Assembly (NCBI RefSeq): GCF_001676615.1
Contig: NZ_LYXZ01000043.1
Span: 1 to 64,000, forward strand
Origin: Labrys sp. WJW
Lineage (GTDB): Bacteria > Pseudomonadota > Alphaproteobacteria > Rhizobiales > Labraceae
DNA: 64,000 bases
Direction: 5' to 3'
Positions 171 to 57,633 of this stretch are shown one piece after another. The number at the start of each line of letters is the position of its first letter. Positions within the stretch are counted from its first letter, which is position 1. Both the position numbers and the translations under genes were made by a program. Below the pieces are notes generated by a model that was given only the letters and a program-made list of their open reading frames with translations, did not search any database and was not told the DNA's origin.

Positions 171-262
171 TCCGTCATTGCGAGCGCAGCGGAGCAATCC
201 AGGAGCCGTAAACTCTATGCCTTCAAGCTCCTGGATTGCTCCGCTGCGCTCGCAATGACGGA
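171..262. repeat. 35-bp perfect inverted repeat, copy 1
   Basis: Arms at 171-205 and 228-262 are exact reverse complements separated by 22 bases. The arm core reads GTCATTGCGAGCGCAGCGGA. The same element occurs at 5654-5742 with two substitutions in one arm, each matched by the complementary change in the other arm. This looks like a REP or MITE-type intergenic element rather than a unique terminator. Confidence 0.8.
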
Positions 263-5653: not shown

Positions 5654-5742
5654 GCGTCATTGCGAGCGTAGCGAAGCAATCCAGGACTTCTAGACGCGGT
5701 GGCCATGGCTCCTGGATTGCTTCGCTACGCTCGCAATGACGC
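5654..5742. repeat. 33-bp perfect inverted repeat, copy 2
   Basis: Arms at 5654-5686 and 5710-5742 are exact reverse complements with a 23-base spacer. The core reads GTCATTGCGAGCGTAGCGAA, differing from the copy at 171-262 at two positions, both compensated in the opposite arm. It lies between convergent genes, where it could also end transcription. Confidence 0.8.
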
Positions 5743-9402: not shown

Positions 9403-9487
9403 CCTGGGACCGCCAGCATCCTGCTGGCTCTTTGACACATTGCGCTTGCTAGAAACAAAGAGCCAGCAGGATGCTGGCAGTCCCAGG
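9403..9487. repeat. 32-bp inverted repeat between convergent genes
   Basis: Arms 9403-9434 and 9456-9487 are reverse complements except for one position, with a 21-base spacer. The arm includes GCCAGCATCCTGCTGGCTC, itself partly palindromic. The right end TCCCAGGAAGAG also occurs near position 114, so it belongs to a repeat family of this genome. It could act as a bidirectional terminator for the convergent deaminase and Ldh2-type genes. Confidence 0.7.
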
Positions 9488-54134: not shown

Positions 54135-55334
54135 TCAAACGCGCTCGAGCGCGATGGCGATGCCCTGCCCCACCCCGATGCACATGGTGGAAAGCGAGCG
54201 CCTGCCTCCCTTGCCCGCCAGTTCCAGCGCCGCCGTTCCGGCGATGCGGGCACCGGACATGCCGAGCGGATGACCGAGTGCGATGGCGCCGCCATTGGGG
54301 TTCACGCGCGGATCGTCATCGGCAACGCCTAGCTGGCGCAGGGTCGCAAGTCCTTGTGCGGCAAAGGCTTCGTTCAGTTCGATCACATCGAAATCGCCTT
54401 GCGCCAGCCCCAGCCGTGCCATCAGCTTTTGCGACGCTGGCGCCGGGCCGATGCCCATGATCCGCGGCGGCACGCCGGCCATCGCGCCGCCCAGGACGCG
54501 GGCGATCGGGGTCAGGCCCTGGATCTTGGCCGCCGCTTCCGAGGCCAGGATCAAGGCGGCGGCGCCGTCATTCACCCCGGAGGCGTTGCCCGCCGTGACC
54601 GAGCCGCCTTCGAACAGCGGCTTGAGCCTGGCGAGTGCCTCGGCCGTGGTGGCGCGGGGATGCTCGTCGCGCTCCACCACCACAGGATCGCCCTTGCGCT
54701 GCGGGATCGTGACCGCCACGATTTCCTGGGCCAGCCGCCCATTGACCTGCGCGGCGGCGGCTTTCTGCTGCGAGGCCAGCGCCATGGCGTCCTGCGCCTC
54801 GCGGGACACACCGAAATCATCGGCGACGTTCTGGCCGGTCTGCGGCATTGAATCGGTGCCATAGGCCTTGTGCATCGCCGGATTGACGAAGCGCCAGCCG
54901 ATGGTGGTGTCGTGGATCTCGGCATGGCGCGAAAAGGCGCTGTCCGCCTTGGGCATGACGAAGGGCGCGCGCGACATGGATTCGACGCCGCCGGCGATCA
55001 TCAGGTCGGCCTCGCCGGCCTTGATGGCCCGGGCTGCGGCCAGGACCGCATCCATGCCTGAGCCACAGAGCCGGTTGATGGTGGTGCCTGAGACGCCGAC
55101 CGGAAGTCCAGCCAGCAGGAGCGACATGCGGGCGACGTTGCGATTGTCTTCTCCCGCCTGGTTGGCGCAGCCGAAGATGACGTCATCGACATCCTGCCAG
55201 TCCACGCCGGGATTGCGCGCCACCAGCGCCTTCAGCGGCACGGCACCGAGGTCGTCGGCCCGGACCGGCGCCAGCGCACCGCCGAAACGACCGATCGGCG
55301 TGCGGATATAGTCGCAGATGAAAACCTCGGTCAT
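54135..55334 (-). CDS. pcaF: 3-oxoadipyl-CoA thiolase
   Basis: Thiolase of 399 residues with acyl-enzyme Cys90 in NRLCGSGMDA, the histidine in GGAIALGHPLG and the second Cys in STMCIGVGQG. It cleaves 3-oxoadipyl-CoA to succinyl-CoA and acetyl-CoA. The start at 55334 is two bases from the pcaJ stop. Context in pcaIJF makes PcaF the likely member rather than a general acetyl-CoA acyltransferase. Confidence 0.9.
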   Translation of the reverse strand: MTEVFICDYIRTPIGRFGGALAPVRADDLGAVPLKALVARNPGVDWQDVDDVIFGCANQAGEDNRNVARMSLLLAGLPVGVSGTTINRLCGSGMDAVLAAARAIKAGEADLMIAGGVESMSRAPFVMPKADSAFSRHAEIHDTTIGWRFVNPAMHKAYGTDSMPQTGQNVADDFGVSREAQDAMALASQQKAAAAQVNGRLAQEIVAVTIPQRKGDPVVVERDEHPRATTAEALARLKPLFEGGSVTAGNASGVNDGAAALILASEAAAKIQGLTPIARVLGGAMAGVPPRIMGIGPAPASQKLMARLGLAQGDFDVIELNEAFAAQGLATLRQLGVADDDPRVNPNGGAIALGHPLGMSGARIAGTAALELAGKGGRRSLSTMCIGVGQGIAIALERV

Positions 55335-55335
55335 G

Positions 55336-56004
55336 TCACAACTCCGGAACGACGAGATCGGCAACCGGACCGGGAACGTGGAGCCTTGCCCCCGTCACGG
55401 CCTGCAATGCGTCGATGGAAAGCGATGGGAGTTTCTCGCGCAGCACGAACCGGCCGCCTTCGATGTCGATCACGGCCAGGCTGGTATAGACCCGGGTGAC
55501 GCAGCCCACCCCGGTCAACGGCAGGGTGCAGCGTTCGAGCAGCTTGGGCTGGCCGTCCTTGGTGACGTGGTCGGTGATGACGGCAACGCGCTTGGCACCG
55601 TGCACCAGGTCCATGGCACCACCGACGGCGGGCACGCCCTTCGGCCCGGTGGACCAGTTGGCGAGGTCACCGGTCTGGGCCACCTGATAGGCACCGAGGA
55701 TCGCCACGTCGAGATGGCCGCCGCGCACCATGGCGAAACTGTCGGCATGGTGGAAGAAGGCGGCGCCGGGCTTCAGCGTCACTGCCTTCTTGCCCGCGTT
55801 GATCAGGTCCCAGTCCTCTTCGCCCTCTGCCGGGCTCTCGCCGAAATTCAGGATGCCGTTCTCGGTGTGGAAGATCGCCTCTCGCCCGGCGGGCTGATAC
55901 TGGGCCACCTTTTCCGGCAAGCCGATGCCGAGATTGACATAGGCACCGTCGGCGATGTCCTGCGCCGCGCGCCATGCGATCTGGTTGCTCGACAATCTGC
56001 TCAT
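55336..56004 (-). CDS. pcaJ: 3-oxoadipate CoA-transferase subunit B
   Basis: CoA-transferase beta chain of 222 residues. The catalytic glutamate is Glu48 in FHTENGILNFG. It transfers CoA from succinyl-CoA to 3-oxoadipate together with PcaI. The start at 56004 abuts pcaI; one base separates the genes. Confidence 0.9.
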   Translation of the reverse strand: MSRLSSNQIAWRAAQDIADGAYVNLGIGLPEKVAQYQPAGREAIFHTENGILNFGESPAEGEEDWDLINAGKKAVTLKPGAAFFHHADSFAMVRGGHLDVAILGAYQVAQTGDLANWSTGPKGVPAVGGAMDLVHGAKRVAVITDHVTKDGQPKLLERCTLPLTGVGCVTRVYTSLAVIDIEGGRFVLREKLPSLSIDALQAVTGARLHVPGPVADLVVPEL

Positions 56005-56005
56005 C

Positions 56006-56737
56006 TCAGGCCTCCAGCGGGTAGGCGGCATTGGCGCGGTTCAGGTCTTCTTCCTGACGCGGATGCGGGACTTCGACGACTTTCTGGACGAAGATGCCGG
56101 GTGTCACCACGGCCTCGGGGTCGATCTCGCCCGCGGCTACGATGCGGCTGGCCTGCACGATGGTCACGGCGGCCGCCATGCACATCAGCGGGTTGAAGTT
56201 CCGCGCCGCCATCCGATAGGTCAAATTGCCGTAGGGATCGGCGAGTTCGGCCTTTACCAGCGCGACATCGGCCTTGAGCCAGCGCTCGCGCACATAGGAA
56301 CGCCCGTCGAACGCCTCCACCGGCTTGCCCGCCGCCAGATCGGTGCCGAAGCTGGTCGGCGTATAGAAGGCGGGGATGCCCGCCCCGCCGGCACGGATGC
56401 GTTCGGCCAGCGTGCCCTGCGGCACCAGCTCCAGCTCGATCTTGCCGGCCAGGTAGAGCTCGGTGAACACCACCGGATCGGCCGAGCGCGGAAAGGAGCA
56501 GATCAGCTTGCGTACCATGCCCGCTTCGATCAGCGCGGCGAGGCCGACATGCCCGTTGCCGGCATTGTTGTTCACCACCGTCAAGTCCTTGGGATGTCCC
56601 GTGGCGCGATAGCGGTCGATCAGGGCGTGGATCAGCTCGATCGGCGATCCCGCGCCACCAAACCCCCCGATCATCACGGTCATTCCGTCCCCGATAGGCG
56701 CTACCGCGCCGGCGAGGTTCGCGACTGTCTTGTCCAT
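56006..56737 (-). CDS. pcaI: 3-oxoadipate CoA-transferase subunit A
   Basis: CoA-transferase alpha chain of 243 residues, with the family motif GGFGGAGSP near residue 24. First gene of pcaIJF. The ATG at 56737 is preferred; a GTG at 56761 would add eight residues. Promoter and operator lie in the 137-base spacer to the divergent IclR gene, which holds the 25-bp inverted repeat. Confidence 0.9.
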   Translation of the reverse strand: MDKTVANLAGAVAPIGDGMTVMIGGFGGAGSPIELIHALIDRYRATGHPKDLTVVNNNAGNGHVGLAALIEAGMVRKLICSFPRSADPVVFTELYLAGKIELELVPQGTLAERIRAGGAGIPAFYTPTSFGTDLAAGKPVEAFDGRSYVRERWLKADVALVKAELADPYGNLTYRMAARNFNPLMCMAAAVTIVQASRIVAAGEIDPEAVVTPGIFVQKVVEVPHPRQEEDLNRANAAYPLEA

Positions 56738-56811
56738 CTCAATCCATCCAAGTGGAGGCACCGTGGCCTGAACGCGATCTCGAGGCGCACAATTAGGCGC
56801 AACGACTTCTT

Positions 56812-56874
56812 CCGTAAATCCAGTTTGTGCGATATGCTATATTTGTTTACATATCGCACAAACTGGATTTACGG
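56812..56874. promoter_or_regulatory. perfect 25-bp inverted repeat abutting the pcaR start codon
   Basis: Arms at 56812-56836 and 56850-56874 are exact reverse complements with a 13-base A+T-rich spacer (CTATATTTGTTTA). The right arm ends at the base before the ATG. The spacer contains TATATT, suitable as a -10 element. It is a strong operator candidate for the IclR protein, in reach of the pcaIJF promoter; as RNA it would bury the translation start. Confidence 0.75.
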
Positions 56875-57633
56875 ATGACCATCAGCGAGCGCGACATCAT
56901 GGGTGGCCTGGCCAAGGGGCTGGCGGTGATCGAGACCTTCACTGCCGAACGCCCGCGCCAGTCCATCTCCGAAGTCTCGGCCGCCTCGGGACTGGACCGG
57001 GCGACGGCGCGACGTTGCCTGCTGACGCTCGCACACCAGGGCTATGCCGACTACGACGGCAAGTTCTTCACCCTGACCCCTCGCGTCCTCAGGCTCGGCA
57101 CGGCCTGCCTTGCGACCATGCCCTTGCCGCAGATCGTGCAGCCGATGCTGGACAGGCTGTCGGAGGAGATCGGCGAAAGCTCTTCGGTCTCCATTCTCGA
57201 CGGCGGCGAGATCGTCTATGTCGCCCGCGCCGCGCAGAAGAAGGTGATGTCGGTAGTGCTGATGCCTGGCTCGCGCCTGCCGGCCTATTGCACGTCGATG
57301 GGTCGGGTCCTGCTCGCCGGGCTGCCGGAACCGGATGCCCGCGCCATTCTGGGCACCGACACGCTGCCTGCTCGCACCTCACGTACCTTGACCGACCCCA
57401 AGGCGATCATCGCCGAGTTGTCGCAGGTCAGGGCCCAGGGCTATGCCGCCATCGACCAGGAGGTCGAGGAGGGCTTGCGCTCGGTCGCAGTGCCGCTCCT
57501 GAATGCCCGCGGTCGGGTGATCGCGGCGCTGAACACCGGTCTGCCGGCTTCCGGCCCGGTAGCGGATCTGACCGGACGCTATCTGCCGGCCCTGCTAGCC
57601 GTGCAGGAGCAACTGAGGCCGATCCTGCGATAA
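56875..57633 (+). CDS. pcaR: IclR family regulator of pcaIJF (PcaR/PobR type)
   Basis: Regulator of 252 residues: IclR winged helix (MGGLAKGLAVIETFTAERPRQ, SEVSAASGLDRATARRCLLT) and C-terminal IclR ligand domain (AYCTSMGRVLLAGLPEPDAR, GYAAIDQEVEEGLRSVAVPL). Divergence from pcaIJF identifies it as PcaR type, which activates these genes in response to 3-oxoadipate in relatives. The start ATG has no evident ribosome-binding site because the repeat arm occupies that place; an alternative ATG lies at 56899. Confidence 0.87.
   Translation: MTISERDIMGGLAKGLAVIETFTAERPRQSISEVSAASGLDRATARRCLLTLAHQGYADYDGKFFTLTPRVLRLGTACLATMPLPQIVQPMLDRLSEEIGESSSVSILDGGEIVYVARAAQKKVMSVVLMPGSRLPAYCTSMGRVLLAGLPEPDARAILGTDTLPARTSRTLTDPKAIIAELSQVRAQGYAAIDQEVEEGLRSVAVPLLNARGRVIAALNTGLPASGPVADLTGRYLPALLAVQEQLRPILR

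Follow-up and report, generated by a model that had tools for sequence, protein, structure and literature searches.

The window, the whole 64,000-nucleotide stretch of Labrys sp. WJW contig NZ_LYXZ01000043.1 that was analysed, includes the genes pcaI, pcaJ and pcaF (56737-54135, minus strand) divergent from pcaR, with the core of a putative operator in the pcaI-pcaR intergenic region (Table 1). The pcaR product is a regulator of the PcaR/PcaU/PobR family, scoring 329.1 bits against TIGR02431 over residues 5-251 where the curated cut-off is 284.75. Translation of pcaR likely begins at the ATG at 56875. This codon was preferred over the conserved ATG at 56899 because residues 5-8 (E-R-D-x), ahead of the conserved Met9 in the E-R-D-x-M-G-G stretch, are kept in PcaR relatives, through synonymous codons across 78 loci, and because TIGR02431 itself begins at residue 5.

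Table 1. Genes, repeat arms, operator boxes and candidate promoters between pcaF and pcaR, in window coordinates.
Feature	Position	Strand	Remarks
pcaF, 3-oxoadipyl-CoA thiolase	54135..55337	-	
pcaJ, 3-oxoadipate CoA-transferase subunit B	55336..56031	-	
pcaI, 3-oxoadipate CoA-transferase subunit A	56006..56737	-	
Candidate pcaIJF promoter	56791..56818	-	Putative -35 TTTACG (56818-56813), 16 nt, -10 CTAATT (56796-56791)
Left arm of perfect 26-bp inverted repeat	56811..56836		TCCGTAAATCCAGTTTGTGCGATATG
Outer left tract	56811..56823		TCCGTAAATCCAG; ancestral by comparison, same in sister G003; probable template of the right tract
Operator box 1	56824..56834	+	TTTGTGCGATA; half-site in the orientation of box 2; kept in 78/86 relatives
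Candidate pcaR promoter	56825..56853	+	Putative -35 TTGTGC (56825-56830), 17 nt, -10 TACATA (56848-56853); weak match
Operator box 2	56842..56850	+	TTTGTTTAC (TTTGTT); half-site beginning within the spacer of the first-pass annotation
Right arm of perfect 26-bp inverted repeat	56850..56875		Ends in the A of the pcaR ATG
Operator box 3	56852..56862	-	TATCGCACAAA; inverted half-site
Outer right tract	56863..56875		CTGGATTTACGGA; derived by comparison, reverse-complement copy of 56811-56823
pcaR, IclR family, TIGR02431	56875..57633	+	252 aa

The first-pass annotation had described a perfect 25-bp inverted repeat ending one base before the pcaR ATG. The arms are exact, complementary and separated by 13 nt (56837-56849, CTATATTTGTTTA) as described and do adjoin the start codon, but they are 26 bp long and the right arm takes in the A of 56875-56877. 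With one mismatch tolerated the arms reach 29 nt. The chance of 26-bp arms is 4^-26 per position and spacing, which is negligible, and the repeat was found at a single location in the 7.63-Mb assembly. A mobile element or REP end was rejected, as the repeat has this single location and shows no relation to the REP-like elements of the window (171-262 and 5654-5742). Inverted repeats of at least 24 bp in the window and 380 kb of the same genome comprised only the pcaR repeat and REP-like elements (CATTGCGAGC...GCAATCC or CATTGCGAGC...GCAATCCAGG). A terminator was looked for and not found. The long perfect inverted repeats at 171-262 and 5654-5742 have 36- and 33-bp arms and belong to one REP-like family (CGTCATTGCGAGCGnAGCGnAGCAATCCAGGA), with more members at G000:C1 129919-129994 and 343678-343741. 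A perfect 23-bp inverted repeat with a 21-nt spacer (GCCAGCATCCTGCTGGCTCTTTG) at 9412-9478 may be a terminator or belong to a different class of repeat.

The upstream regions of 86 PcaR-related loci, taken from genome contigs and the genus, were read for comparison. The core site at 56824-56862 was found upstream of pcaR in 78 of the 86, as an exact or near match to TTTGTGCGATA - 17 nt - TATCGCACAAA, and the gap between boxes 1 and 3 was exactly 17 nt in 77 of the 78 and 18 nt, by alignment, in the remaining one, sister genome G003. Inside the gap the TTTGTT columns were almost invariant (1.5-2.0 bits over 77 relatives), and the TTTGTGCG-TAT, TTTGTT and CGC-C columns of the core-site alignment mostly carried 1.5-2.0 bits. 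The sequence containing TATATT between the arms had been noted as a spacer, yet most of box 2 falls inside it. Boxes 2 and 3 together form the palindrome TTTGTT-N9-CACAAA (TTTGTTTACATATCGCACAAA, 56842-56862), a pair related to TTTGTTCG...CGMACAMA, and box 1 is a half-site in direct orientation outside this palindrome at fixed spacing to box 3. The site lies between the regulator gene and its target pca genes in the window and upstream of pcaR in the 78 loci. Box 3 is separated from the start codon by a median of 12 nt across loci and by 12 nt here too, so an operator this near the ATG is usual among PcaR-related loci.

Sites of PcaU and PobR have three boxes, namely a palindrome and a direct half-site, with the PcaU motif given as TTTGTTCGATWATCGMACAMA (PMC8222616). 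The arrangement in the window is like that of the PcaU operator of Acinetobacter baylyi (half-site TTTGTTCG), where a palindromic pair with an external direct half-site is located upstream of the pca genes beside the regulator (PMC8222616), although the window has TTTGTGCG, TTTGTTTA and inverted TTTGTGCGATA as half-sites and its flanks have grown to a 26-bp perfect dyad. Regulator family and targets are also shared with the Pseudomonas putida PcaR operator (WWWRKTCGATWATCGSAYRRW), where the gene arrangement differs and where PcaR binds over the -35 and -10 elements according to Guo and Houghton (1999), as cited in PMC8222616. From this likeness we infer that the core at 56824-56862 is a three-box IclR operator of the PcaU/PcaR type and the putative PcaR site. 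Judged by its distribution over the loci compared, it is a widely conserved and ordinary PcaR-type site of an already known kind.

Candidate promoters were placed on both strands around the core. The TTGTGC hexamer, which lies in box 1, was present in 72 of 78 loci and similar A/T-rich hexamers occupied the -10 position at other loci; transcription of pcaR is predicted to start at about 56860-56862, 7-9 nt past TACATA. On the minus strand the best TTGACG-like hexamer was located 4-5 nt outside box 1 in 71 of 78 loci (TTTACG here) and was followed at 16-17 nt by a CTAWNN-like -10. A sigma-70 consensus scan reported neither the pcaR nor the pcaIJF promoter, and both were thus assigned solely from conservation and spacing. 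The core overlaps the candidate pcaR promoter and abuts the candidate pcaIJF -35. PcaR bound to the core would cover both the -35 and the -10 element of the pcaR promoter, giving autorepression, and would sit just upstream of the pcaIJF -35, from where it could activate with beta-ketoadipate. Repression of pcaR by its own product and activation of pcaIJF would both fit this geometry, and in Agrobacterium pcaIJF is reported to be activated by PcaR with beta-ketoadipate as the inducer (PMC12288460).

Comparing the repeat across related species, a check the first-pass annotation had put forward, gave a different result for the outer arms. The outer flanks are 13/13 contiguous complement in the window, while in the 77 other loci they paired at chance level (average 3.6 of 14, chance 3.5) and never over more than 3 contiguous bases, even as the columns of boxes 1, 2 and 3 stayed nearly invariant. 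The operator reading itself was upheld by the TIGR02431 assignment, the divergent pcaIJF genes and the core found across the loci, but not for the whole dyad: the conserved elements are the three half-sites within 56824-56862, and this is the only one of the genomes examined in which the outer 13 bp of the two arms are symmetric. Perfect symmetry along the entire length, together with the ability of IclR proteins to bind tandem sites as tetramers (PMC8222616), would suit a full 25-26-bp dyad selected as an operator with PcaR touching the outer arms; given outer arms at chance elsewhere and their lack of symmetry in G003, whose PcaR is 94% identical, we give this reading very little credence.

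Differences between the two outer flanks pointed to the direction of change. The left flank (TTCCGTAAATCCAG), which carries the pcaI -35-like TTTACG, was 14/14 identical in G003 and moderately conserved across the comparison set, and outgroup G001 kept TTCCGT..ATC on the left with no copy on the right. At the place of the right tract, G003 has GGAGCTCCG (Shine-Dalgarno, AAGGAG), its right flank being AAGGAGCTCCG-ATG / CGCACAAGGAGCTCCG-ATG and that of the window CGCACAAACTGGATTTACGG-ATG. The DNA around the repeat aligns to G003 at about 91.6%, so the change in the right flank appears to be a local event. By this comparison, in which the ancestral state is taken from one close sister (G003) and more distant relatives, the outer left tract is the older copy and the right tract is new. 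The perfection of the outer arms is most likely confined to this lineage and their contact with the ATG an accident of it rather than operator design. To our knowledge no extended dyad is known for the Pseudomonas putida PcaR operator.

Taken together, these alignments make it probable that the core is a three-box PcaR operator and that its right flank was perfected by a single quasipalindrome template switch from the left flank. An imperfect inverted repeat appears to have been present in the ancestor, as G003 has 12-bp arms and boxes 1 and 3 are symmetric in relatives. This pre-existing quasipalindrome, about 12 bp long, would have come from the box 1 and box 3 half-sites. On the lineage leading to this genome the new strand may have folded back on it during replication, copied about 13 nt more from the left flank and rejoined the normal template at the pcaR start codon. 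The outcome would be a right flank that is the perfect complement of the left, 26-bp arms and a weaker Shine-Dalgarno. All of the new right-flank bases would be explained, because one left-flank copy primed by the existing 12-bp hairpin would provide them, and the right tract is indeed an exact contiguous complement of the ancestral arm, whose left tract is the same in G003. Template switches at quasipalindromes that perfect imperfect inverted repeats have been measured in E. coli (PMC7202029). The proposed event resembles that of the lacZ QP reporters described there in that an imperfect inverted repeat would have been made perfect, putatively in a single event, and differs in that it is deduced by comparison, spans a tract of about 13 nt and affects an operator and ribosome-binding site, not a reporter.

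The same right flank might have arisen stepwise, from an ancestral AAACTGGAG leader to AAACTGGATTTACGG by substitutions and a small insertion, through chance or selection for symmetry. Since AAACTGGAG is the Shine-Dalgarno region in some relatives (e.g. L029, L035), some of the symmetry may be old, and the ACTGGA of the right tract could have existed before the event; about 7 nt (TTTACGG) would then be left to copy. The remaining 7-8 matching bases would have a chance of about 10^-4 to 10^-5 per locus, and with runs as short as those of the 77 other loci stepwise drift is very unlikely. A hairpin-copy error of the assembly or library, the true chromosome having a sister-like Shine-Dalgarno, was considered since the sequence comes from one draft assembly (140 contigs, 6% contamination) with no second strain seen, and inverted copies can arise in vitro beside a hairpin. 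At the ATG the copy returns to normal sequence, with the frame intact and neighbouring sequence not duplicated, so such an artefact would need two switches in most reads and was judged highly improbable.

The ribosome-binding site was affected by the change in the right flank. The Shine-Dalgarno duplex was -7.5 kcal/mol in G003 (AAGGAG) versus -3.1 kcal/mol in the window, which ranked 67th of 78 against a median of -6.1 kcal/mol for the set, other loci being weak too. The statement that no separate ribosome-binding site was left is nearly right, as the 3-bp GGA that persists falls within the right arm. A hairpin hiding the start codon had also been proposed, but it would form only on an upstream transcript: RNA from 56806 had a predicted fold of -48.8 kcal/mol (z -9.5) whose stem takes in the start region. 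RNA from 56860 or 56863 had little structure (z +1.5 to +1.8), transcripts beginning at 56836 or later were less structured than shuffles, and the leader predicted from the candidate promoter in the operator would have no such hairpin. The pcaR mRNA leader would be short, at about 13-15 nt, and unstructured; with the candidate promoter within the operator, the hairpin would not normally form in the mRNA. Translation of pcaR would be expected to continue from ATG 56875 on such a leader. The upstream fold could instead point to an RNA attenuator tuning translation by hiding the pcaR start, but the long stem was kept in no other locus of the set, an upstream start would fall where the pcaI promoter is placed and pcaR has its promoter-like elements inside the operator, and an attenuator is therefore a slight prospect at best.

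It is conceivable, though we consider it unlikely, that the proposed template switch was not neutral and that, by putting a copy of the pcaI -35 flank in place of the Shine-Dalgarno, it gave this lineage a new setting of PcaR synthesis. If this were true, a natural single replication error at the operator of a regulator would have altered both DNA symmetry and translation, and template switches could in general be concentrated at regulator operators that adjoin start codons. The locus illustrates that a perfect palindrome can mislead, as the half of each arm that extends beyond the half-sites is most likely a scar left by recent copying and no operator. Such a scar would be a sharp natural case of quasipalindrome correction at a regulatory site. 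The core operator would in turn be a clean family-wide PcaR site, usable for predicting pcaIJF control in many Alphaproteobacteria.

Other observations concerned the distribution of these sites. PcaR relatives at L013, L023, L054, L081 and L082 had no recognisable three-box site upstream, including L013 and L054 (Rhodobacter/Pararhodobacter) where PcaR is 73-77% identical. Between pcaI and the operator, about 13 nt (AGTGGAGGCACCG) at 56747-56760 are missing in G003. A genome search found no second three-box match elsewhere in the genome. At L118:3586-3605 (G000:C1:479585-479604) there is a related half-site pair of the PcaR type (TTCGTTCGAATATCGCACAA) with a second dyad after it. The pair lies upstream of a gene resembling those of FAD-dependent dehydrogenases, and a pcaR paralogue of 60% identity (L118:4620-5387, minus strand) is nearby.
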